From Oscillospiraceae bacterium (GTDB lineage: Bacteria; Bacillota; Clostridia; Oscillospirales; Acutalibacteraceae): a stretch of 32,996 nt of DNA. The notes beneath the pieces are model-generated. The model was given only the letters and a program-made list of their open reading frames with translations, was not told the DNA's origin and searched no databases. Shown here piece by piece: positions 2,344 through 21,721 of this stretch. Position 1 is the stretch's first letter. The number at the start of each line of letters is the position of its first letter. The stretch lies in the NCBI GenBank assembly GCA_029227055.1, contig JAQXZE010000020.1, forward strand, positions 1 through 32,996. The letters run 5' to 3'. A program made the translations under genes and the position numbers.

Positions 2344-3612
2344 ATGATCTATGCAGCAATTGCGCTATTTGCGGTAACCTATATTTTAATGCTCGCCTTT
2401 GGCAAGTACAGACCGTATATCGCGCTCGCATCTGCCTTCGTTTTTATTGTTTCGGGGATGCTGTCGGTAGGCAACATTATTGAGAACATAGATTTTAATG
2501 TGCTTTTAATGATTGCGGGTACAATGGGAATTGTGGCTCTGTTTATCGAAAGTCATATGCCTGAGCTGCTTGCCGATTTAATAATGGAAAAGGTTCCGAA
2601 TATTAAGTGGGCGGCAGTTGCAATGGCTCTGTTTTCGGGAATCATTTCGGCGTTTGTTGATAATGTGGCTACCGTTTTAATGGTAGCGCCTGTAGCCCTT
2701 GAAATCTGCAAAAAGCTTAAAACAAATCCTGTGCCCTTCATCATAGCAATTGCGGTTTCTTCAAATTTACAGGGTGCGGCAACCTTGGTTGGAGACACAA
2801 CCGCCATCATGCTAGGCTCTGCCCTTGATATGAGCTTTATGGACTTCTTCTGGTATAAGGGTAGACCCGGTATGTTCTTTATTGTAGAGCTGGGCGCTAT
2901 TCTTTCAGCATTAATAGTAGCGTTTGTTTTCCGCAAAGAAAAAGGCGCTATTCCAAGGGGAGCTGAGCGTACAAAGGTTACAGACTATGTGCCGACCTAT
3001 CTTTTGTCAGGTACGATTTTACTGCTTATTTTGGCATCCTTTATACCTAACAAGCCCGATGTCACAAACGGACTTATCTGCTGCGGACTTCTTTTAACAG
3101 GTATAATTTATAATTTTGCCAAAAAGAGAACCCTTGCGGCGATAACAGCACCCTTAAAAGAAATTGATTTTGAAACAATCGGTCTTTTACTTGGCCTTTT
3201 CTTGATGATAGGCGGAATTGCCGAACAGGGTGTAATCGCGGCGGCTGCAAAGCTACTTGCAAAGGCAGGCGGCGGAAACATTTTCTTGCTTTATACCGTT
3301 ATTGTATGGGCTTCTGTATTAATTTCTGCATTTATTGATAATATTCCTTATGTTGCAACTATGATACCTGTTATTGCAGGTTTGGCTTCTGCGCTTAATA
3401 TTGACCCTACAGTACTTTATTTTGGTCTGCTTTCGGGCGCTACTTTAGGCGGTAACTGTACTCCTATCGGCGCTTCTGCAAATATTGCGGGTATCGGTAT
3501 TTTGCGCAAAGAGGGATACACCGTTAAAAATTCCGATTTCTTTAAAATAGGAATACCCTTTACATTAGCGGCGATAATTCCCGCTTACATTTTCCTTTGG
3601 ATTATGTACTGA
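2344..3612 (+). CDS. SLC13 / ArsB-NhaD superfamily permease (anion or Na+/H+ transporter)
   Basis: About 11 hydrophobic segments; duplicated motifs SAFVDNVATVLMVAPVALEI and SAFIDNIPYVATMIPVIAGLA; GGNCTPIGASANIAGIGI. Confidence 0.85.
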   Translation: MIYAAIALFAVTYILMLAFGKYRPYIALASAFVFIVSGMLSVGNIIENIDFNVLLMIAGTMGIVALFIESHMPELLADLIMEKVPNIKWAAVAMALFSGIISAFVDNVATVLMVAPVALEICKKLKTNPVPFIIAIAVSSNLQGAATLVGDTTAIMLGSALDMSFMDFFWYKGRPGMFFIVELGAILSALIVAFVFRKEKGAIPRGAERTKVTDYVPTYLLSGTILLLILASFIPNKPDVTNGLICCGLLLTGIIYNFAKKRTLAAITAPLKEIDFETIGLLLGLFLMIGGIAEQGVIAAAAKLLAKAGGGNIFLLYTVIVWASVLISAFIDNIPYVATMIPVIAGLASALNIDPTVLYFGLLSGATLGGNCTPIGASANIAGIGILRKEGYTVKNSDFFKIGIPFTLAAIIPAYIFLWIMY

Positions 3613-4055: not shown

Positions 4056-4079
4056 AACTACCGGCACGGCCGGTAGTTA
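4056..4079. repeat. 10-bp inverted repeat hairpin AACTACCGGC-acg-GCCGGTAGTT
   Basis: Perfect inverted repeat with a 3-nt loop at ~4057-4079; overlaps the stop codon of the AraC-family gene. Confidence 0.75.
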
Positions 4080-4907
4080 TGATTTCCTATAGTGTCGCGG
4101 CGATTTGCCGTAGAATTTTTTGTAAACTCTACTGAAATAGTTATAATCGGAAAAACCGACAAGTGAAGCAATTTCCGTTATAGGAAGCTCGGTGGTTTTA
4201 AGCAAACGCTTTGCTTTATGCATCCTTCTGTACAAAATGTATTTTGAGATTCCCATATTTAAATTTTTTCTGAATATTTCATATAGCTTTGTTCTGCCTA
4301 CATTTAGCTCACAACACAATAATTCAATATTAATCTCCTCGTTTAAATGCTCTTCAATATACAATTTAGAAGACTCAATTATTTTATTATGTTCAGGCTT
4401 TATCAGTTCTTTGTAAATTATATACGATGTACAAGCTTCCATTATTTTAGCAGCTGCGAGGATTCGCTGTTCTTCTTTATACGGAATTTCATTTATTCCG
4501 CTATTTAGATTCTGTATATCAAGATTGTATTTTTCGTTTAGTTTTTCCGCATATTTGTAAAGATGTTCTTTATTGGGGCAGTCGGTTATTTGACCAAACA
4601 TTAAATAACCGATTGTTTTTTCGTTTTCATGCAAAGGCATTACAGCTTCAACCAAGCCGGCATGGCATTTGTAAACAATAAGAGAGTTTTGCTTTTCGCA
4701 TTCCAAAAAAGAACGACGGTCGGCATAGTTACATTTTCTTCTAGTTTTCGGATAACTTTTCATTGTTTTGCAAAAAGTACAGTTATCCTCAGGGTATGCC
4801 ATAATTTCTTTGAAATCAGTATCAAATAAAACGAATCTAATACCTGAAAGGATATGGAAAGATTTCATTAACGATTCTAACTGAGATTTATCTAACGAAA
4901 TTGACAT
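4077..4907 (-). CDS. AraC-family transcriptional regulator with N-terminal PocR-type sensory domain
   Basis: C-terminal double HTH (INIELLCCELNVGRTKLYEIFRKNLNMGISKYILYRRMHKAKRLL...ITEIASLVGFSDYNYFSRVYKKFYGKSPRHYRKS). Cys-rich N-terminal domain (CTFCKTMKSYPKTRRKC...YKCHAGLVEAVMPL...IGYLMFGQI) fits PocR. Start MSISLDK preferred over the longer ORF (to 5024), which overlaps the divergent gene. Confidence 0.88.
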   Translation of the reverse strand: MSISLDKSQLESLMKSFHILSGIRFVLFDTDFKEIMAYPEDNCTFCKTMKSYPKTRRKCNYADRRSFLECEKQNSLIVYKCHAGLVEAVMPLHENEKTIGYLMFGQITDCPNKEHLYKYAEKLNEKYNLDIQNLNSGINEIPYKEEQRILAAAKIMEACTSYIIYKELIKPEHNKIIESSKLYIEEHLNEEINIELLCCELNVGRTKLYEIFRKNLNMGISKYILYRRMHKAKRLLKTTELPITEIASLVGFSDYNYFSRVYKKFYGKSPRHYRKS

Positions 4908-4922
4908 AAAATCCGTTCCTCC

Positions 4923-4999
4923 GTACAAATTTACAATTTTTTGTATGATGTTGACTATAATTATATCAAATATCAAGATAAAATTAAAGTACAAATTTA
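4923..4999. promoter_or_regulatory. Divergent control region with repeated GTACAAATTTA operator candidates
   Basis: GTACAAATTTA at 4923-4933 and 4989-4999 (66 bp apart, same strand). The first also begins an imperfect palindrome TACAAA...TTTTGTA. TTGACT at ~4951 is a possible -35. Confidence 0.45.
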
Positions 5000-5012
5000 A
5001 GGAGGTAATCCT

Positions 5013-6416
5013 ATGAAAAAACAAACATTTGCATTATTTTTTGGCAACCGTGGTTTTATGCCGGCCGAGCTTATCGAAGGTGCTCGTGAAGACATGGTAA
5101 AGGCCGTGACTGAGGCAGGCTATAATTACCTTATTATGGATAAAGACGCTACTCGCTACGGGGCGGTAGAAACCAGAGATGAGGGTAGGGCATATGCTGC
5201 CTGGCTTAAGTCTCATGAGGGCGAATATGACGGTGTTATTCTCTGCATGCCTATATTTATTGATGAGAACGGTGCCATCGCAGCCCTTCAGGATGCTGGC
5301 GTTCCTATTCTTATGCAGGCATATCCCGACGAAATAGGAAAGATGGATTTTCAGCATCGTAGAGATGCATATTGCGGAAAATTCTCTGTAACCGATGTTT
5401 TTGAGCAGTACAAGGTTCCTTATACTGTTATGAAGCCGCATGTTGTAGATCCGCTGACACCTGAGTTTACAAAAAATCTTCATGATTTTGCGGCAGTATG
5501 TCGTGTAGTGAATGGAATGAAGCGTTTTACAATTGGTTGCATCGGTGCTCGCACTACGGCATTCAAGACAGTACGTTTTGATGAGCTTACAATGCAGAGA
5601 CATGGTATTAATGTTGAATCATTTGACCTCTCAGAGCTTTTCGAGTTTGTCCGTGCTAAGGATGATAACGATGAAAAGGTTATCGCAAAGAAGAAGGTTC
5701 TTGAAAACTATACCGATTTCTCAAACGTGCCTGAGGATAAGAAGAATATGCTCGCAAAAATCAGCGTTGTTATTGATGAATACATAGAAGAGTATCATCT
5801 TGATGCAATAGCACTTCGCTGCTGGAATGAGATGGAGACATATCTTAGAGTTTGTCCTTGCGTACTGATTTCCGAGCTTAATGACCGTGGCATTACTGCT
5901 TCTTGCGAAATTGATATGTGTTCAGCTATTACTATGCGTGCGCTTTCTCTTGCAACCGAAGGCCCTGCAGCCTGTCTTGATTGGAACAACAACTACGGAG
6001 AAGATCCTGATAAGGTCATACTTTTCCATTGCGGTTCTACAGCACAGAAACTTATGGCAGGAAAGGGAACTGTAACCTCTCATAAGATGTTTGATAAGGG
6101 CGATCCGGGCAGCGGATGGGGCACCAACGAGGGAAGAATTGCCGCATTCCCGATGACCTTCTCCAACTGTAAGACCGAAGATGGTAAGATTACGATTTAC
6201 TTTAGTGAAGGTGAGTTTACCGACGACAATATTGAAAAAGAATTCTTCGGTTGCGGCGGTGTCGCTAAAATTGACAATTTACAAGATAAGCTCATACGCT
6301 TAGCACGTGGTGGATTTAAGCATCATACTACAGTAGCAAACGGACACGTTAAAGAGATTTTAGAGGAAGCGTTTAAATATTATCTCGGCTATGATGTCGT
6401 AAACATAGAGGGATAA
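5013..6416 (+). CDS. L-fucose/L-arabinose isomerase-family sugar isomerase
   Basis: Preceded by RBS AAGGAGGT. Contains ITASCEIDMCSAITMRAL (E-x-D metal-ligand-like motif of FucI/AraA), AACLDWNNNYGEDPDKVILFHCGSTAQ. Confidence 0.85.
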   Translation: MKKQTFALFFGNRGFMPAELIEGAREDMVKAVTEAGYNYLIMDKDATRYGAVETRDEGRAYAAWLKSHEGEYDGVILCMPIFIDENGAIAALQDAGVPILMQAYPDEIGKMDFQHRRDAYCGKFSVTDVFEQYKVPYTVMKPHVVDPLTPEFTKNLHDFAAVCRVVNGMKRFTIGCIGARTTAFKTVRFDELTMQRHGINVESFDLSELFEFVRAKDDNDEKVIAKKKVLENYTDFSNVPEDKKNMLAKISVVIDEYIEEYHLDAIALRCWNEMETYLRVCPCVLISELNDRGITASCEIDMCSAITMRALSLATEGPAACLDWNNNYGEDPDKVILFHCGSTAQKLMAGKGTVTSHKMFDKGDPGSGWGTNEGRIAAFPMTFSNCKTEDGKITIYFSEGEFTDDNIEKEFFGCGGVAKIDNLQDKLIRLARGGFKHHTTVANGHVKEILEEAFKYYLGYDVVNIEG

Positions 6417-6418
6417 TT

Positions 6419-7897
6419 ATGGTATTTGGTGGACTTGATGTAGGAACGACTGGCTGTAAGATAGCCCTCTATAGCGATGAGTCGCAGCTGCTTCGCACCT
6501 ATTATAAGGAATATGATGTTATTCGCAACAACGGTCAACACGAAATTAATTTTGCCGATGTCAGAGGAGGGGTTCTAGAACTTCTGAAAATGGCAGTAAA
6601 GGACTATAAGGTCGAAGCATTAGGTATCACGAGCTTTGGTGAGACCTTTGCTATGCTTGATGAGAACGATAACATTTTAGCACCGTCAATGCTTTATACC
6701 GACCCTAGAGGAGAGGCAGAGTGCAAAGAACTTTGCGATGTGCTCGGTGAGGAAAGACTTACCTTGCTCACAGGCGTAAAGCCTCATCCTATGTACAGCA
6801 TCTCGAAGATAATGTGGCACAAAAATAACAATCCCGAAGCCTTTTCCAAGTGCAAAAGGATACTTCTCGGTGAGGATTTTATTGTTTACAGTATTACTGG
6901 CAAGGCGCAGATAGATTATTCTCTTGCCGCCCGTACGGCAGCTTTTGATATTGAGAAAAAGTGCTGGATAGAGGAGATTTTTAATGAGGCCGGGGTAGAT
7001 GCTTCGCTTATGTCTGAACCTGTGCCTGCAGGCACAGAGGCGGGAGTTACAACCGCCGAAATAAAGAATATACTTGGCATAGATTACGATATAACCATAG
7101 TAAACGGTTGTCACGATCAGGTGGCGGGTATGATTGGCTCGGGTATATTTGAGACCTATCAAGCTATGGACGGTACAGGTACGGTTGAATGTATACCTGT
7201 TATCTTGAATCAAAAGCCGACCGATATAAATTTCTATGAGGGTGGATACTCTGTTGTGCCTTATCTTGGTGGGCAGTATGCTTGCTACGCTCTTTCCTTT
7301 ACGGGTGGTGCAACACTTAAATGGTTCCGTGACAATTTTGCCGAGCTTGAATGGAAGGCCGCTGAAAATGAGGGCAAAAACGTTTATGCCGAGCTTGATA
7401 GCAAGGTTTCTGATAAGCCTACGGGAATACTTGTTCTACCCCACTTTGCAGGTGCTGCAACACCTTATATGGACAACGATTCAAAGGCAGCTTTTATAGG
7501 AGTTACCCTTGAAACTACAAAGTATGATCTATATAAAGCCTTAATGGAAGGCACCTCATACGAAATGCTGCTCAATTTCAATACAATGAAGGCCATGACG
7601 GGTGAAATTGAGGAAATTAGAGCAACGGGTGGGGGAGCCACTTCGGATGTTTGGCTTCAAATAAAGGCAGATATTCTTGATACTGAAATAACAGCTCTTT
7701 CTTGTAAAGAGGTAGGAGCAGCAGGAACTGCAGCGCTTGCAGGCCTTGCTGTAGGAGTGTTTACGGAGCTTAACAAAGCGGTAGAAAAAATGGCTCCTGT
7801 TCGCAAGGTGTTTAAATCTACTGCCGAAAACGTTTCGATCTACAATGAACTCTATAAAAAATATGCTAATTTATATGGCGCGGTAAAGGGGTTGTAA
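6419..7897 (+). CDS. FGGY-family carbohydrate kinase
   Basis: GGLDVGTTGCKIALYS; GCHDQVAGMIGSGIF; MDGTGTVE; EIRATGGGATSDVWLQIKADIL; CKEVGAAGTAALAGLAVG. Confidence 0.92.
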   Translation: MVFGGLDVGTTGCKIALYSDESQLLRTYYKEYDVIRNNGQHEINFADVRGGVLELLKMAVKDYKVEALGITSFGETFAMLDENDNILAPSMLYTDPRGEAECKELCDVLGEERLTLLTGVKPHPMYSISKIMWHKNNNPEAFSKCKRILLGEDFIVYSITGKAQIDYSLAARTAAFDIEKKCWIEEIFNEAGVDASLMSEPVPAGTEAGVTTAEIKNILGIDYDITIVNGCHDQVAGMIGSGIFETYQAMDGTGTVECIPVILNQKPTDINFYEGGYSVVPYLGGQYACYALSFTGGATLKWFRDNFAELEWKAAENEGKNVYAELDSKVSDKPTGILVLPHFAGAATPYMDNDSKAAFIGVTLETTKYDLYKALMEGTSYEMLLNFNTMKAMTGEIEEIRATGGGATSDVWLQIKADILDTEITALSCKEVGAAGTAALAGLAVGVFTELNKAVEKMAPVRKVFKSTAENVSIYNELYKKYANLYGAVKGL

Positions 7898-8898
7898 TGA
7901 TGAAAGACTATGTAGGAAATTCTTTGCAGATAAGAGGCGCAGAGCAATATATACTGCAAAATGGTAAGGGCGACGGAATGCATTTCCTTTATATCCGCAA
8001 CGGATTGGGCTTAGAGGTATGGATTTCGCTTGACCGTGCAGGAGATGTTTCGCGTGTTAGTTTTAAAGGGGACAACATGGGTTATTTTGCACCTTGCGGA
8101 TATGTGGCGCCGGAGTATTATGACGGCGTGGGTGCGGGTTTTCTCAAATCATTTACCGCCGGATTTTTTACTACCTGTGGTCTTACTGCAGTAGGCTCTC
8201 CTTGTACTGACGAGGGCGAGGAGTTACCGTTACATGGAACTATTTCGCACATACCTGCCGAGCTTATGTGTAAGGAAGAGAACGAGAAAGAACTTGTAAT
8301 CAAATTGCGAATTACAGATGCACGAATTTTCGGCAGAAAGCTGGTAATGGATAGAATTTACCGTTTTTCCTATGTGGATAATAGTTTTGAAGTCTCTGAT
8401 AAGGTTACAAACCTTGCTGACGCCGAAACACCCTATATGATACTTTATCATTGCAATATGGGATATCCTTTGCTTAGCCAAAACAGTATAGTTAAAATAC
8501 CCAATAATAATATTTCTGCCAGAGATGAGCATGCAGAAAAGTTTTTGGATACTGCTTTGGATATGGAAAAACCGAAGGCTAATTATCAGGAGCGCTGCTA
8601 TTACTATGATGTAAAAGAGAAGAATAATATCGCAAAAGTGGGTATATACAATGCGGATATTAATAAAGGTGTTGTTTTAAGCTACGATAAGGCGAGTTTG
8701 CCTTGTTTTACTGAATGGAAAATGATGGGAAAGACCGACTATGTTTTAGGCTTAGAGCCGGGAAATTGCACTCCGGACGGCAGAGATGTACTGCGTAAAA
8801 AAGGCACTCTCAAATTTTTACAGCCTGATGAGAGCGGCATAACTACTGTTAGATTTACGTTTGTATCAGATGAAAAAGATTTTGAAGGGGAGATTTAG
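7897..8898 (+). CDS. DUF4432 / aldose 1-epimerase-like protein
   Basis: EVWISLDRAGDVSRVSFKGDNMGYFAPCGYVAPEYYD, FLKSFTAGFFTTCGLTAVGSPCTDEGEELPLHGTISHIPAE, LYHCNMGYPLL. 1-nt overlap with the upstream kinase stop. Confidence 0.8.
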   Translation: MMKDYVGNSLQIRGAEQYILQNGKGDGMHFLYIRNGLGLEVWISLDRAGDVSRVSFKGDNMGYFAPCGYVAPEYYDGVGAGFLKSFTAGFFTTCGLTAVGSPCTDEGEELPLHGTISHIPAELMCKEENEKELVIKLRITDARIFGRKLVMDRIYRFSYVDNSFEVSDKVTNLADAETPYMILYHCNMGYPLLSQNSIVKIPNNNISARDEHAEKFLDTALDMEKPKANYQERCYYYDVKEKNNIAKVGIYNADINKGVVLSYDKASLPCFTEWKMMGKTDYVLGLEPGNCTPDGRDVLRKKGTLKFLQPDESGITTVRFTFVSDEKDFEGEI

Positions 8899-9756
8899 GT
8901 GCTTGTTAATTTGAAAGAAATCCTTAAGATTGCAGAAGAAAAAAAGATTGCAATCGGCTGTTTTAATGCGCCAAATTTGACATGCCTTCGTGCAGTTGTA
9001 AAAGCGGCTGAAGAACTTGGACGGCCGGTAGTACTTACTCATGCGCAACTCCACGAGGACAAGGGATTGGTTTCAATGGATGAAATCACTCCGGCAATGC
9101 TTTTGTATGCTAAAAAAGCAACAGTTCCTGTATGTGTACACCTTGACCATGGTACCGATATAGAATATATACGTCACGGACTTGAACTTGGATATACATC
9201 GGTTATGTATGACGGTTCGGAGCTTCCGCTTGAGGAAAATATTAAAAATACTAAACTGGTTGTGGAGATGGCTCACGCCCAGGGTGCATCTGTTGAAGCC
9301 GAGCTTGGTTCTATGGGTGCTCGCAGAGGGGGATTCGGCGGCGCTACTGAAGCCAGTGAAAACGATACGAGAGTTTCTATTTATACCGACCCCGATACCG
9401 CATCAGAATTCGTGCAAACTACGGGCGTTGATGCTTTGGCTTGTGCGTTCGGCACAGCACATGGTTTTTATGCTGATGCACCCAAACTTGATTTTGAAAG
9501 AATTTCAGCACTTAGAGAGGCAATGAATTGTTTACCTATAGTGATGCATGGCGGTAGCGGTGTAAGTGAAGAAGATTTTCGTGAGGTAATCCGCAGAGGA
9601 GTAAGAAAAATTAACTACTATACATATATGTCTAAGGCGGGCGGAGAAGCTGTGTCCAATAAAACGTATACACAGTTCCACGATGTCCTTCTTGATGCCG
9701 AAAAAGCAATGTTTGAGGATGTTAAAAAGGCAATAAGCGTATATTCAAATATTTAG
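8899..9756 (+). CDS. Class II fructose-bisphosphate/tagatose-bisphosphate aldolase-family protein
   Basis: IAIGCFNAPNLTCLRAVVKAAEE, VPVCVHLDHGTDIEYIRHGLELGYTSVMYDGSELPLEENI, VEAELGSMG, ALACAFGTAHGFY, PIVMHGGSGVSEEDFREVIRRGVRKINYYT. GTG start abutting the previous stop. Confidence 0.92.
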   Translation: MLVNLKEILKIAEEKKIAIGCFNAPNLTCLRAVVKAAEELGRPVVLTHAQLHEDKGLVSMDEITPAMLLYAKKATVPVCVHLDHGTDIEYIRHGLELGYTSVMYDGSELPLEENIKNTKLVVEMAHAQGASVEAELGSMGARRGGFGGATEASENDTRVSIYTDPDTASEFVQTTGVDALACAFGTAHGFYADAPKLDFERISALREAMNCLPIVMHGGSGVSEEDFREVIRRGVRKINYYTYMSKAGGEAVSNKTYTQFHDVLLDAEKAMFEDVKKAISVYSNI

Positions 9757-10240: not shown

Positions 10241-10290
10241 TAAGAAAATATTTTATGTCATTTTGTTGGATTGGAGAAGCAAAACTTTTT

Positions 10291-13233
10291 ATGTTTGAAG
10301 TCAGAAATCTTACTAAAATTTACCGTCCAAAGAGCGGTGCAGAGGTAAAAGCGCTCGATGATGTTTCCCTTTTCTTTGAAGAAACAGGAATGGTGTTTTT
10401 GTTAGGTAAGTCGGGAAGCGGAAAGTCCACCTTGCTTAATATTTGCGGCGGACTCGATGCGCCAACAGAGGGCGAAATAATCGTAAAGGGTAGAAGCAGT
10501 AAGGATTTTACCCAAAGTGATTTTGACAGCTACCGCAACACCTTTGTAGGCTTCGTTTTTCAGGAGTATAACATTCTTAATGAATTTTCGGTTGAGGATA
10601 ATATCGCCTTAGCCTTAGAGCTTCAGAATAAACCCAAGGATAAAGCGGCAATCGAAAAAATCCTTGCCGATGTAGATTTAAAGGGCATACAAAACCGAAA
10701 GCCGAACACTTTATCGGGAGGTCAAAAGCAGAGAATTGCTATTGCGAGAGCCCTTATTAAAGACCCCAAAATTATTATGGCTGATGAGCCGTCGGGTGCG
10801 CTTGACTCGGTTACGGGAAAACAGGTTTTCGATACACTTAAAAGTCTTTCTAAGGATAGACTTGTTATTGTTGTCTCTCACGACAGAGATTTTGCTGAGC
10901 AATACGGCGACCGTATAATTGAGCTTAAGGACGGTCGTGTTATTTCGGATGTTTCTAAAAATTCCGAAAAGCAAAAGCCCGTTACTAAAAATATAGACGC
11001 GATGGAAAATATTCTTCGTGTAAGAGGCGGCGCCGAGCTTGACAAAGCTGACCTTGAAGAAATAAAGGCGTTTTTAAGCAGAGCTGAGGACGATGTAATA
11101 ATAACCTCAGGCAAAAAAGAGGTAAGCGGTTTTAAAGCGGCAAACAGAATTAACGAAAACGGCGAGAGGGAAGTGTTTAAAGAAACAACGGCGAAGCCGA
11201 GTAAGGCGTATAAGCCTGAAGACTGCCGTTTTATATCCTCAAGACTACCCCTTAAGCACGCTATAAAAATCGGTCTTTCGGGGCTAAAGAGCAAACCCAT
11301 CCGTTTGTTTTTCACCTCTCTTTTGTGCATAGCTTCATTTGTTATTTTCGGACTTTTATCTACAATGTCGCTTTATAACAGTGGCGCAATATTTAAAAAG
11401 TCTATGGCGAATTCCAATCAGTCGGTAATACGCGTTAAAAAAGAATATGAGGTTGATATACAAAGCTATCAGAACGAAAAGCCGTATTTATCCTATAAAG
11501 AGGTTTATAAGACCGACTTTACACCCGAAGAGCTGGAAAAACTAAAGGATACCTACGGCAGAAAAGCTTTTGGCGGTGTTGAGACCGATAGTACCTTTGT
11601 GGTTTACAACAGCCAGCACGCCTTTTGGATGAACAGAATTGATTTTGTAGCCTTCGTGCCGAAGGATAATGTGATTTGCAGAACAATAAAGGGTGATTAC
11701 CCCGAAAACGATAACGAGGTTTGCATATCTTCTTATACTGCAGATGTGCTTTTCAACTGCAAAACCTATGACGAAAACAGAAGAATAATAAATTTCTCAA
11801 AGCCCGAAGATGTTATTGGAAAAACAATACATATCTTAGGCAGACTTTATACCATTACAGGCATTTTCGATAGCGGAGAAATAGACGAAAAATACAACAT
11901 TTTAAAGAGTGAGGCTGATAAAACAGAGCTCGAGCAGCTAGTAAACTCTTTTGAAACCACCCTTGAAGACGGACTTCATTTTGTTGCCTTTTCTACAGAA
12001 AACGCCGTTAAAACTATAGCCGCTGAGCGAGCCGAAAACCATCAGCAAGCCCACGATTATAGAGCGCTCGTTTCGGTGGTTGACTTTTACGGTATGTCAA
12101 AGCTTCCCGAATATGCAAACAGCTACTATAGGGGGGTATCCGAAAAAGCAGAGGGCGTAGAGTTTTATGAACTAAGTGACGAAATAAAGACCCTTGAAGA
12201 AGGCGAGGTTGTTATTCACGAGGATTTGTTTTATGAATCTGTTGAGAGAATTTACACAGCAAAGCAAATCTTCGAAAAGGACAGCAAAAAGCATCAAAAA
12301 TATGTAAAAATATCAAACCTTTGCCGTGAGCAAAAGTCGGGCGGTAGCTGGAATTACGGTAATGTAAGCGGATTTACCGCCTTTACCGAGAAAGAACTCA
12401 AAGAAAACATACAAACAATTTTGGCAGCCCTCAAAGAAGACGGCATTGAGCTTAATTTGAAAACAGCCCTCTTTGACGACAAAACCTACGACGAGCTTTC
12501 AGATGTAATGAATATGCGGATTGTAGGCTTCTGGACAGGCGGACCGATGGCGGCCGGTGAAAAAACCGTATACATTGCCGACGATTATGCTGAAAAGCTT
12601 TGGAACACACATAAAGGCGGTCTTTTGTTCAGCGAAGAGGCGGATACCAAGTTTGTTCGTAACTTCGAGGCTTTCTATAGCGATATATTCTTACCCTATG
12701 ACCATTCAAAAGAGCAGACAGAAGTTTACGGTGACATTTATACCGATGCCGGTTTTGATAATAAAGACTGCCGTATAGCATTATCGGGTGCCTTTATCGA
12801 AAATCTTGCAGAGGTGGACTACAGTATTCAGGAAATGTCTAAGATTTTCTTAGGCGTAGGCATAGCGCTTGCCATCTTTGCCGCATTATTGCTCTCAAAC
12901 TTTATTTCAGTTTCAATAACCCAAAAGAAAAAGGAAATCGGCATACTTCGTGCGGTTGGCGCTAAGGGTACAGATGTATTTAAAATGTTCTTCTCGGAAT
13001 CTGCGGTTATTGTTATTGTTTGTATAATTATTTCGAGCATAGCTAGTATTATCGGTTGTAACATTATAAATGAAGCCTTGGCGCAAAATGTGGGTGCAGA
13101 GCTCTTAGTGTTCGGTGTACCGTCCTTCATTTTACTTGTATTGGTTGCGGTAACAACGGCGGTTTTGGCAACATTTTTACCCGTATACAACGCCGCAAAG
13201 AAGAGACCTATCGATTCAATAAGGTCTAATTAA
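10291..13233 (+). CDS. ABC transporter with fused ATP-binding and FtsX/MacB-type permease domains
   Basis: MFEVRNLTKIYRPKSG; Walker A GKSGSGKST; LSGGQKQRIAIARALIKDPKIIMADEPSGALD; C-terminal FtsX helices and KKKEIGILRAVGAKGTDVFKMFFSES, PIDSIRSN. Start placed at MFEV rather than the upstream ATG at 10255. Confidence 0.93.
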   Translation: MFEVRNLTKIYRPKSGAEVKALDDVSLFFEETGMVFLLGKSGSGKSTLLNICGGLDAPTEGEIIVKGRSSKDFTQSDFDSYRNTFVGFVFQEYNILNEFSVEDNIALALELQNKPKDKAAIEKILADVDLKGIQNRKPNTLSGGQKQRIAIARALIKDPKIIMADEPSGALDSVTGKQVFDTLKSLSKDRLVIVVSHDRDFAEQYGDRIIELKDGRVISDVSKNSEKQKPVTKNIDAMENILRVRGGAELDKADLEEIKAFLSRAEDDVIITSGKKEVSGFKAANRINENGEREVFKETTAKPSKAYKPEDCRFISSRLPLKHAIKIGLSGLKSKPIRLFFTSLLCIASFVIFGLLSTMSLYNSGAIFKKSMANSNQSVIRVKKEYEVDIQSYQNEKPYLSYKEVYKTDFTPEELEKLKDTYGRKAFGGVETDSTFVVYNSQHAFWMNRIDFVAFVPKDNVICRTIKGDYPENDNEVCISSYTADVLFNCKTYDENRRIINFSKPEDVIGKTIHILGRLYTITGIFDSGEIDEKYNILKSEADKTELEQLVNSFETTLEDGLHFVAFSTENAVKTIAAERAENHQQAHDYRALVSVVDFYGMSKLPEYANSYYRGVSEKAEGVEFYELSDEIKTLEEGEVVIHEDLFYESVERIYTAKQIFEKDSKKHQKYVKISNLCREQKSGGSWNYGNVSGFTAFTEKELKENIQTILAALKEDGIELNLKTALFDDKTYDELSDVMNMRIVGFWTGGPMAAGEKTVYIADDYAEKLWNTHKGGLLFSEEADTKFVRNFEAFYSDIFLPYDHSKEQTEVYGDIYTDAGFDNKDCRIALSGAFIENLAEVDYSIQEMSKIFLGVGIALAIFAALLLSNFISVSITQKKKEIGILRAVGAKGTDVFKMFFSESAVIVIVCIIISSIASIIGCNIINEALAQNVGAELLVFGVPSFILLVLVAVTTAVLATFLPVYNAAKKRPIDSIRSN

Positions 13234-13251: not shown

Positions 13252-13872
13252 ATGATAAAAGTAACTTTACTTGGTGATTCTATAAGGCAGATTGGCTACG
13301 GAAATGTAGTCCCCGAGCTTTTGGGTGATAAATATGAGGTCTTTCAGCCTGACGATAACTGCCGTTTTGCAAAATATACACTTCGCGGACTTTTCGATTG
13401 GGCGGGTGATATGCAGGGCAGCCGTATAGTCCATTTTAATTGCGGACTTTGGGATATCTGCGATATTATGGACGACGGCGAGCATTTCACATCTCTTTCA
13501 GAGTATACCGAAAATATGCTTCGCATAGCCGATATTTTACTTTCTCGCTATGAAAAGGTTATTTTCGCAACCTCAACACCCGTAAAGCCCTCAAATCCTC
13601 ATAACAAAAACGAGGTTATTGAGGAATATAATAATCATATAGTAGAAAAATTCAAAGAGCGTGGTATAATAATAAATGACCTTTATTCGCTCGTTGCAGA
13701 GGATATCGAAAACAATATCTGCGAGGACACAATTCACCTGTCTGATAAAGGTGTAAAGCTCTGCGCCGAAAGGGTAGCAGAGGTGATTAAAACCGCCGCT
13801 GCAGAGCTTGATGACAACGCTGTTCGTGAGTGTAAAACAGTTCACAAGAGCACAATGGGTGCTCCCGTATAA
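13252..13872 (+). CDS. SGNH/GDSL-type hydrolase family protein
   Basis: VTLLGDSIRQIGYG (block I GDS), HFNCGLWDI, DTIHLSDKGVKLCAERV (block V DxxH). RBS AAGGAGAAAG. Confidence 0.8.
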   Translation: MIKVTLLGDSIRQIGYGNVVPELLGDKYEVFQPDDNCRFAKYTLRGLFDWAGDMQGSRIVHFNCGLWDICDIMDDGEHFTSLSEYTENMLRIADILLSRYEKVIFATSTPVKPSNPHNKNEVIEEYNNHIVEKFKERGIIINDLYSLVAEDIENNICEDTIHLSDKGVKLCAERVAEVIKTAAAELDDNAVRECKTVHKSTMGAPV

Positions 13873-13901
13873 ATTAAAAAACTTTAACGGAGGTTTTATT
13901 T

Positions 13902-14474
13902 ATGAAAACAGTTAAGGACAAATATTTAGTAGTAGGAGCAGACTTTGCAGGCTATCCTCTTAAAGAGGCTGTTGTTGCCCACCTTAAAGAAAAAGGCTGG
14001 AAGATAACCGATATGGGCGTTAAGGCAGATTCAGACCCTAATGACACCGATTTAATGTTCCACAGAGTAGGTCTTCGTGTCGGCTCAATGATTAGCGAGG
14101 GCGAGTTTGAGAGAGCATTGCTTTTCTGCGGTACAGGTATGGGTATTCATATCGCGGCAAGTAAATGTCCCCATGTACACGCAGGCGTTGTTGAGAGTGT
14201 TCCCGCAGCGCTTCGTGCAATTACAGGCAACGGCGTAAATGTTCTTGCGATGGGAGCTTTTTATGTTGCGCCCTCTATGGGCTGCGATATTGCAGACGCT
14301 TATCTTAATGCAGAACTCGGCTCAGGATATGAGTGGTGGAAGAATTTCTATGAGTTCCATAAGCTTGCAATCGACGAGCTTGAAGCCTTCGATTACGAAG
14401 AGTACAAGGCTAACGGCTACAAGGTTAATAAGCTTGGCGATTATCCCTTAAAGCTCGAAAAGAAACCTGACTAA
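13902..14474 (+). CDS. RpiB/LacA/LacB-family sugar-phosphate isomerase
   Basis: VGADFAGYPLKEAVVAHLKEKGWKITDMGV; ERALLFCGTGMGIHIAASKCPHVHAGVV; GNGVNVLAMGAF. Confidence 0.85.
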   Translation: MKTVKDKYLVVGADFAGYPLKEAVVAHLKEKGWKITDMGVKADSDPNDTDLMFHRVGLRVGSMISEGEFERALLFCGTGMGIHIAASKCPHVHAGVVESVPAALRAITGNGVNVLAMGAFYVAPSMGCDIADAYLNAELGSGYEWWKNFYEFHKLAIDELEAFDYEEYKANGYKVNKLGDYPLKLEKKPD

Positions 14475-14484
14475 TAAATTTCCT

Positions 14485-14518
14485 CACGCCCATAAAAGTA
14501 AAAACTTTTATGGGCGTG
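14485..14518 (+). terminator. Strong intrinsic terminator
   Basis: CACGCCCATAAAAGT-AAAA-ACTTTTATGGGCGTG, 15-bp perfect stem, then AAGTTTT. Confidence 0.85.
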
Positions 14519-14585
14519 AAGTTTTAGCTTTGAAGATTGTAATGAGAAAAAAGATATGCTATAATCTTTAAAAAGAGGTGGCTTT

Positions 14586-15500
14586 ATGAAAAAGATAGAT
14601 TTTGGTAAAAGCGGAATAAAGGTTCCGTCTATAGCTGTAGGCTGTATGCGAATATCAAATATGAGTGAACACGAAGTAGACGCTTTTGTTGATACCGCTT
14701 TAGAAAACGGCGCAAACTTTTTTGACCACGCCGATATTTACGGCAGAGGCAACAGTGAAATTGTCTTTTCAAAGGCGCTTGCCAAAAGGCGCCGCGAGGA
14801 TTTTATAATACAGACAAAATGCGGAATAGTGTCGGGCAAAATGTTTGATTTTTCCTATGAGCATATTGTTGAATCTGTGAACGGGAGCTTAAAAAGGCTA
14901 GGCACCGATTATATTGATGTTTTGCTACTGCACAGACCTGATACGCTTATGGAGCCCGAAGAGGTTGCACGTGCATTTGATGAATTAAAGGCGTCGGGTA
15001 AGGTAAGGCATTTCGGAGTTTCAAACCAAAATCCCTATCAGATGGCGCTTCTTCAAAAATATCTTGATATGCCGATTTGCGCAAATCAGCTTCAGTTTAG
15101 CATTATGCATGCCCCGATGATACAGTCGGGCATAAATGTTAATATGTATAACGATTCTGCGGTTAACAGGGATGGCGGCGTCCTCGATTATTGCCGCCTT
15201 AATGATATAACTATTCAAAGCTGGTCTCCTATGCAGTATGGATTTTTCGAAGGCTGCTTTGTTGATAACGAAAAGTTCCCTGAATTAAATCTTGTTTTGG
15301 AAAGACTTGCAGAAAAATACGCCGCTTCCAAAACTACTATTGCAATTGCTTGGATTTTGCGTCACCCTGCAAATATGCAGGCGGTAACAGGCACTACAAA
15401 TCTTACTCGTCTTGCTGAATGTATTAAGGCTACCGACATAACCATTACCCGTGAAGAATGGTATGAAATATATAAAGCGGCAGGTAACATTTTGCCGTAA
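14586..15500 (+). CDS. Aldo/keto reductase
   Basis: NFFDHADIYGRGNSE, TKCGI, YIDVLLLHRPDTLMEPEEVARAFDELKASGKVRHFGVSNQNPYQM, TTNLTRLAECI. Confidence 0.93.
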   Translation: MKKIDFGKSGIKVPSIAVGCMRISNMSEHEVDAFVDTALENGANFFDHADIYGRGNSEIVFSKALAKRRREDFIIQTKCGIVSGKMFDFSYEHIVESVNGSLKRLGTDYIDVLLLHRPDTLMEPEEVARAFDELKASGKVRHFGVSNQNPYQMALLQKYLDMPICANQLQFSIMHAPMIQSGINVNMYNDSAVNRDGGVLDYCRLNDITIQSWSPMQYGFFEGCFVDNEKFPELNLVLERLAEKYAASKTTIAIAWILRHPANMQAVTGTTNLTRLAECIKATDITITREEWYEIYKAAGNILP

Positions 15501-20464: not shown

Positions 20465-20512
20465 TTTTGAAGCAGGGCAAAGCCCAAAAAAGCTTAAATG
20501 AGGAGAAATATA

Positions 20513-21721
20513 ATGACAATCGAACAACATATCAAAAAAAGCTTTAAGCGCTTAAGTGAGCCTGAATATTCCAGTGAAAAGGTATGGCAGCCTAAGGATT
20601 ATGAGTGGCCGGGCGATTGGGAAGGTCGCGCACTTTTAGCTATCACTTCTCTTAATTCGATAAGCGATGAAGAAAACGAATATGTACATAATATTGTAGC
20701 TGATTTAAAGAACCATGTTAACTCTCAGGGCTTTTTGGGTCACGAGTATATTGAGGGCGAGGTAGACGAGCAGCAGCTTGCAGGTCATACCTGGCTTGTT
20801 CGTGGACTTCTTTTGTATCATAATTTATACAAGAGCCAAGAGGCATTTGAATATGCAAAGAGAATAGTTTATAACCTTTATATGCCGATAATTGATGCGG
20901 TTGATACCTATCCGCTAGAGCGGGATATGGAGGATGACGGTGGCGTTGCAGGTCATAACAAACTTGTTTTATCGGGTTGGCGTGTTTCTACCGATGTGGG
21001 CTGCGCCTTTGTGGGACTTGACGGACTTACAACCTATTACGAGCAAACTCGCGATGAAAATGTTAGACCTTTAATCGATAAGCTAATCAACAAATTTTAT
21101 AGTATTGATAAGGTAGCGCTTCGCGCTCAGACCCACGCAACTCTCACGGCGGCAAGAAGCATTATGAGAATGTATCTTGTAACAAAAGAGGAAAAATATT
21201 TAGAAATGGCAAAGGACGAGCTTGAGAAGTATCTTGAGTTTGGAACAACCGCTACCTATGAAAACTATAATTGGTTTGGCCGTCCTGATACCTGGACCGA
21301 GCCTTGCGCAGTTGTTGATAGCTTTATGTTAATAACAGCTTTGGCTGATGTTACAGGCGACGAAAAATACATAAAGCTTGCAAGACGTGTTTGGTTTAAC
21401 GGACTTTCCTTCTGCCATAGAAAGAATGGTGGAGCCGGTACAAACAAGTGCGTTACCGAAACACAGCCCGTTTTGAAGATAGGTATGATAGAGGCTTACT
21501 TCTGCTGCACAATGCGTTACTGCGACGGACTAGTCTCTGCTAAGAAGTATAGCGAATGGTTTAGCTTTGACGAAAATGCAGAGGTTGTTAAAGAGGGCGG
21601 CAGATACTTTAAGGACGATGTTATGCTTGTAAAGAGCGTAAAGGACGGTAGTACCGTTTTAATAACCGATATCGAAGTATCCCCTGAAAATATGGATGAC
21701 GAATATTTAGTGTTCTATTAA
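20513..21721 (+). CDS. GH127-like (beta-L-arabinofuranosidase superfamily, alpha/alpha-toroid) protein
   Basis: WTEPCAVVDSFMLITALADVTGDEKYIKLARRVWFNGL and EAYFCCTMRYCDGL resemble the Glu-x-Cys plus Cys-Cys Zn-thiolate motifs of GH127. RBS AGGAGA precedes ATG 20513. Confidence 0.65.
   Translation: MTIEQHIKKSFKRLSEPEYSSEKVWQPKDYEWPGDWEGRALLAITSLNSISDEENEYVHNIVADLKNHVNSQGFLGHEYIEGEVDEQQLAGHTWLVRGLLLYHNLYKSQEAFEYAKRIVYNLYMPIIDAVDTYPLERDMEDDGGVAGHNKLVLSGWRVSTDVGCAFVGLDGLTTYYEQTRDENVRPLIDKLINKFYSIDKVALRAQTHATLTAARSIMRMYLVTKEEKYLEMAKDELEKYLEFGTTATYENYNWFGRPDTWTEPCAVVDSFMLITALADVTGDEKYIKLARRVWFNGLSFCHRKNGGAGTNKCVTETQPVLKIGMIEAYFCCTMRYCDGLVSAKKYSEWFSFDENAEVVKEGGRYFKDDVMLVKSVKDGSTVLITDIEVSPENMDDEYLVFY

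Follow-up and report, generated by a model that had tools for sequence, protein, structure and literature searches.

The genes at positions 4077 to 9756 of the window (the whole 32,996-nucleotide stretch of DNA that was analyzed) probably encode the PocR-AraC-controlled catabolism of a neutral, non-phosphorylated aldose in which a ketose-1-phosphate is cleaved; this degree of confidence applies to the chemistry and not to the substrate. From the observed gene set, protein families, fold, catalytic residues, and recurrence of both the module and its upstream element, we infer the following reactions, products, and regulation. A DUF4432 protein would speed anomer exchange of the aldose, a metal-dependent isomerase would convert the aldose to the 2-ketose, an FGGY kinase would generate the ketose-1-phosphate, and a class II aldolase would split this compound, releasing DHAP together with a short aldehyde. 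Some relatives have a nearby aldo-keto reductase gene, the product of which may reduce this aldehyde. Regulation would be exerted via PocR-AraC. The fucIKA-like isomerise-phosphorylate-cleave logic had been proposed in the first-pass annotation, and the gene set, enzyme families, conserved residues, and recurrence of the module make this reaction logic of a widespread catabolic module well supported. The gene set is undescribed in the literature searched, where no assignment was found for its enzymes or its sugar, and the module looks like an undescribed means of cleaving a plant-type sugar to yield a small aldehyde and an intermediate of glycolysis.

Organization, recurrence, and upstream element

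The regulator, an AraC-family protein with a PocR domain (4077..4907, reverse strand; 276 residues; PF10114, 6.7e-32; HTH_18, 8.3e-23), is divergent from four forward-strand genes that encode a sugar isomerase of the AraA/FucI/SqvD superfamily (5013..6416; 467 residues; PF02952), an FGGY sugar kinase (6419..7897; 492 residues; FGGY_N/C), a mutarotase-like DUF4432 protein (7897..8898; 333 residues; PF14486, 5.8e-86), and a class II aldolase of the FBP type (8899..9756; 285 residues; PF01116, 2.9e-84). These coordinates and Pfam domains agree with the gene content initially read from the DNA, as do the gaps of 2, -1, and 0 nucleotides between the enzyme genes (6416/6419, 7897/7897, and 8898/8899). 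The tight packing and the presence of a conserved element ahead of whichever gene comes first support the single transcript that had been claimed. The operon indeed contains no transporter gene, the nearest being a CitMHS-type permease gene upstream (2344-3612) and a gene for a 992-residue ABC protein downstream (10255-13233). The regulator start was revised from TTG 5024 to ATG 4907 because the former overlaps the isomerase gene and the resulting 276-residue protein agrees with its homologues (275-298 residues in most loci); with this start the divergent intergenic region is 105 bp. The regulator scored 123 bits against the PocR equivalog, far below the cut-off of 500.

Several other features of the window and its genome were recorded. 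Positions 13252-15500 encode an SGNH hydrolase, an RpiB/LacAB-family isomerase, and an aldo-keto reductase; the closest models of the isomerase (RpiB and erythrulose-phosphate isomerase) were matched below their cut-offs, and the reductase shares a sequence group with those beside the module in other genomes. A 407-residue open reading frame (20498-21721) with no Pfam match at 1e-6 lies near NagA-like and BadF-type kinase genes. The genome was unmatched for PF00562 (RNA polymerase beta domain) despite its 97% completeness rating, probably reflecting an assembly gap.

A scan of a one-genome-per-species collection revealed at least 579 stretches that encode an isomerase relative. The top 80 of these are 75-94% identical to it and derive from Clostridia, plus one case in Pectinatus; many carriers are gut bacteria of herbivores or other animals. 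Among the 52 loci with enough flanking sequence, 45 encode the isomerase, kinase, and aldolase together and 32 contain all five genes, and a divergent PocR gene adjoins the module in most loci examined. The gene order varies, with PocR/ISO-KIN-DUF-ALD in 15 loci, PocR/KIN-ISO-ALD-DUF in nine, PocR/DUF-ISO-KIN-ALD in five, and other arrangements also present. Reshuffling of the order with retention of the set is strong evidence for one function, and the five-gene set is a true, widespread module rather than a product of chance or a local oddity. Close relatives of the isomerase were found in the order of the window organism. A sample of the phylum yielded no close relative outside the genome of the window, only clades of 32-40% identity and more distant ones. 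Viral contigs contained no relative.

The isomerases are 81-94% identical where the kinase, DUF4432 protein, and aldolase are mostly 46-81% identical. We considered whether abnormal conservation or a recent transfer of the isomerase explains this difference and rejected both: four-fold sites are saturated in all of the module genes, which argues for purifying selection instead of a recent transfer, and the high conservation is not peculiar since FucI behaves similarly across such genomes (57-90% identity).

An element close to GTACAAATTTACAATTTTTnGTA recurs between the PocR gene and the first gene ahead of many operons. It was matched with at most six mismatches in 22 positions in 37 of the 61 PocR-divergent loci, compared to a shuffle mean of 9.3 mismatches. 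The median was four mismatches for isomerase-first operons, whereas a diverged form precedes kinase-first and DUF-first operons (medians of 7.5 and 7, respectively); singly these forms are near the shuffle level, yet they are visibly alike and are followed by a similar -10-like box. In the window, the putative operator GTACAAATTTACAATTTTTTGTA (4923..4945, forward strand) comprises two GTA(C/T) half-sites 20 bp apart and lies upstream of a TAAAAT -10-like box (4979-4984) and an AGGAGG sequence (5000-5005). We read the conserved upstream element as a putative PocR-AraC operator. The intergenic region also contains an exact 11-bp direct repeat that, among the loci checked, occurs only in the window; the conserved unit is the single element.

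Enzyme families and predicted reactions

PDB sequence searches with the isomerase, using the single sequence and a profile, returned zero matches. A structure model (pLDDT 89) was compared by Foldseek, with the best matches being L-arabinose isomerases (TM 0.83, 15% identity) followed by FucI (TM 0.75). In profile alignments, of which the one to AraA is weak (E = 3.6e-4) and the one to FucI covers only the Glu and Asp residues, E299 aligns with AraA E306 and FucI E337, D323 with FucI D361, and H339 with AraA H350; H438, within GGFKHHT, corresponds to AraA H450 by motif. All four residues are invariant in 31 diverse relatives and are the inferred metal ligands of a retained site. On the basis of the modeled fold and these predicted metal-binding residues, the isomerase belongs to the AraA/FucI/SqvD fold superfamily. 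It is not a member of the AraA family, as the Pfam scan identified PF02952 alone without PF02610, and it is not FucI, a protein of about 590 residues with PF07881/PF07882 N-terminal domains, of which PF07882 is the published signature (PMC5583593).

The sole NCBIfam match of the isomerase, to the sulfoquinovose isomerase SftI (NF048012), raises the alternative of sulfoquinovose catabolism by a sulfo-EMP2-like route involving an SqvD-type isomerase, an SF kinase, and an SqiA class II aldolase. In sulfo-EMP2, too, the isomerase belongs to PF02952 and the aldolase is of the FbaA type (PMC9594981). The SftI score of 94.6 bits is, however, far below the cut-off of 700, the module kinase is of the FGGY family rather than PF00365, neither SqvB nor a sulfoquinovosidase or sulfolactaldehyde enzyme was recognized in the annotated neighborhoods, and the aldolase has an invariant Glu at its far site that would be unfavorable for a sulfonate. 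We regard this alternative as extremely improbable.

In a quick-method tree, the module isomerases group in a single starred clade (n = 21). Its nearest neighbors are the isomerases of L166 (60% identical), a locus that carries GH36 and AKR genes in addition to the complete module, and L167 (58% identical), their exact placement being unsure given long branches. Beyond these are a clade paired with D-psicose 3-epimerase, and then clades found in AraR-AraB-AraD operons or with split transketolase and FGGY kinase genes. The occurrence of sister isomerases in L-arabinose-type and apiose-type operons narrows the candidate sugar. In L114, L120, L124, L133, and their relatives, isomerases of 35-40% identity take the place of AraA in GntR/AraR-AraB-AraD operons; these proteins apparently represent a non-orthologous L-arabinose isomerase for which sequence searches found no structure.

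Generically annotated, D-apiose-like clusters were observed in Sodalis, Klebsiella, Rahnella, and Monoglobus (L188, L189, L190, and L192). Their isomerases are 27-37% identical to that of the module and are encoded with a split transketolase, an FGGY kinase, and ribose-type ABC genes, in agreement with the apsI/aplK/aptAB set (PMC13001218). D-Apiose as the substrate of the module is nevertheless highly improbable: the module lacks the transketolase pair, and its kinases fall outside the probable apulose-kinase clade. Furthermore, aldol cleavage of apulose-1-phosphate does not yield DHAP.

The kinase scored 279 bits against the XylB model (TIGR01312; cut-off, 380) and 128 bits against that of AraB (PRK04123; cut-off, 428). 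Module kinases form one starred clade, on long branches, that is apart from Escherichia coli AraB, XylB, and the probable apulose kinases. Phosphorylation of the ketose at C1 is predicted from the conserved P1 site of the aldolase.

The module could also be a variant of the L-fucose/D-arabinose (fucIKA) or L-rhamnose (rhaBAD) route, with which it shares identical reaction logic. The nearest E. coli kinases, grouped weakly (support of 86, long branches), are FucK/RhaB/LsrK, and PocR regulators elsewhere are propanediol sensors. Opposing this reading, the isomerase possesses PF02952 alone without the FucI-specific domain, the module aldolase belongs to PF01116 rather than PF00596, and the genome of the window encodes a separate FucI as well as, in a microcompartment-like locus, a FucA/RhaD-type aldolase. 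The latter locus (L193, on contig C5 of G000), with the aldolase gene beside genes for an alcohol dehydrogenase and a PduO-like protein, is probably a fucose/rhamnose propanediol microcompartment locus. Trees place the module enzymes outside the known L-fucose, L-rhamnose, xylulose, AraB, and probable D-apiose clades, so the possibility that would have made this a standard pathway is improbable.

The DUF4432 protein had been considered mutarotase-like, a view that its model (pLDDT 94) upholds, with Foldseek matches to 3ty1 and galactose mutarotases and thus a galactose-mutarotase fold. Four residues (H113, H185, E232, and E287) show no substitution down to 28% identity and parallel the GalM catalytic residues in their order and spacing; on this basis H185 and E287 are the putative counterparts of the GalM catalytic pair. 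A mutarotase role is plausible from these model-based comparisons.

For the aldolase, the best NCBIfam match was PRK06801 (254 bits, below its cut-off), and the GatY/KbaY model (TIGR01858) gave 202.6 bits compared to a cut-off of 443.55. In the aldolase tree, a starred clade distinct from GatY/KbaY and YdjI holds the standard module enzymes. The HLDH, GTAHG, HGGSG, and NxxT/S motifs are retained, comprising the zinc and catalytic residues and the P1 phosphate site, and by these residues the protein is a predicted PF01116 ketose-phosphate aldolase. An invariant H52-E53 pair occupies the far-phosphate positions of FBP and tagatose-bisphosphate aldolases. Because this pair replaces the far-phosphate residues and the isomerase requires a free aldose, a ketose-1-phosphate would be the simplest aldolase substrate. 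Five related loci (L057, L063, L167, L177, and L179) swap in a second PF01116 subfamily of ~335 residues for the usual aldolase, as does L070, which suggests that a PF01116 aldolase is what the pathway needs.

Candidate sugars

We give about an even chance to a substrate of D-galacto/L-arabino configuration. GH36 genes, a GH4 gene, MglB-type transporters, and the araBD sister clade point weakly in this direction. The GH36 genes, which may lie before or after the isomerase gene, occur in 13 of the 80 loci; their best curated model, the BAD_1528 beta-L-arabinopyranosidase (the biology of which is described in PMC10688797), gave 468 bits in L020 and 499 bits in L032, well short of the 1100-bit equivalog cut-off. 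The GH4 alpha-galactosidase in L177 scored above its cut-off, and in a few loci the neighborhood survey identified an MglB-like binding protein together with an ATPase and a permease. A GH51 gene within L037 is a further hint of this kind. The substrate signal is mixed, as GH78-type, GH94, GH2, GH43, and other hydrolases also adjoin the module.

L-Arabinose is our tentative first guess, with L-ribulose-1-phosphate being cleaved to DHAP and glycolaldehyde; D-fucose and D-galactose rank behind it, each with a slim chance. A native L-arabinose route via L-ribulose-1-phosphate, or its D-galactose/D-fucose analogue, that is widespread in gut Clostridia is a real prospect, at somewhat less than even chance. 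A pentose route via a ketose-1-phosphate is known from engineered strains; we know of no description of ketose-1-phosphate cleavage as the native route for L-arabinose, D-galactose, or D-fucose. AraA was not found in the genome of the window, a hint toward such a substrate. Of 40 carriers of the module, however, 16 encode AraA and 39 encode GalK, so that many carriers would not depend on the module for L-arabinose or D-galactose. The module as a simple replacement for AraA is not supported, as AraA is more common in carriers than in non-carriers (5 of 40; the samples are unmatched for lineage and genome size). GH51 arabinofuranosidase, used as a test for L-arabinose, was encoded by 6 of 24 AraA-less carriers and 6 of 35 AraA-less non-carriers, with no clear enrichment.

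The same chemistry could instead act on a sugar that yields a 3R-ketose (D-allose, D-altrose, or D-arabinose, via D-psicose or D-ribulose). A sister operon type (L168, L169, L170, L171, and L040:4671-7010) encodes PocR in most cases, an isomerase of 49-51% identity, and a D-psicose 3-epimerase, which in L040 exceeds its curated cut-off (366 versus 300 bits). This pairing favors a 3R-ketose; in L040, however, the epimerase pair is in tandem with the module isomerase-kinase-aldolase genes, an arrangement suggesting that two isomerases make C3-epimeric ketoses that feed one kinase and aldolase. The GH36 neighbors favor galacto/arabino sugars, and the known PF01116 ketose-bisphosphate aldolases are, to our knowledge, 3S-specific. 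We consider a 3R-ketose sugar unlikely and retain the D-galacto/L-arabino reading.

Naming the sugar would explain what the gut bacteria that carry the module compete for, and the assignment would correct a family annotated as "L-fucose/L-arabinose isomerase" or "xylulokinase". The module could also supply a natural route that leads from a pentose or rare sugar directly to DHAP.

Relation to known systems

The E. coli K-12 YdjH/YdjI route resembles the pathway predicted for the module in using a PF01116 aldolase on a ketose-1-phosphate with an aldo-keto reductase nearby, but it has a PfkB-type kinase, no isomerase, and an aldolase of another clade. The araBAD system has an AraA-fold isomerase, and sister isomerases of the module replace AraA beside AraB and AraD; whereas araBAD phosphorylates ribulose at C5 and then epimerizes the product, the module has an aldolase in place of AraD and a kinase outside the AraB clade. 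The non-oxidative D-apiose route (ApsI-AplK-AptAB) shares the isomerase superfamily, in the clusters examined here, and an FGGY kinase; it differs in having a transketolase pair rather than an aldolase, and the kinase clades are separate. Sulfo-EMP2 (SqvD-SqiK-SqiA) has in common with the predicted module pathway a PF02952 isomerase without FucI N-terminal domains and an FbaA-type class II aldolase that converts a ketose-1-phosphate to DHAP; the module differs in its FGGY rather than PF00365 kinase, its lack of SqvB and sulfo-genes, and an aldolase in which a far-anion site is not evident. Like the pathway predicted for the module, fucIKAU combines an isomerase, an FGGY ketose kinase, a metal-dependent aldolase forming DHAP and an aldehyde, and a separate mutarotase; in contrast, the module lacks the FucI domain set, has a PF01116 rather than PF00596 aldolase, contains DUF4432 instead of FucU, and is paired with a PocR-AraC regulator. 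We conclude that the module, although its predicted operation resembles that of fucIKA or sulfo-EMP2, belongs to neither system.
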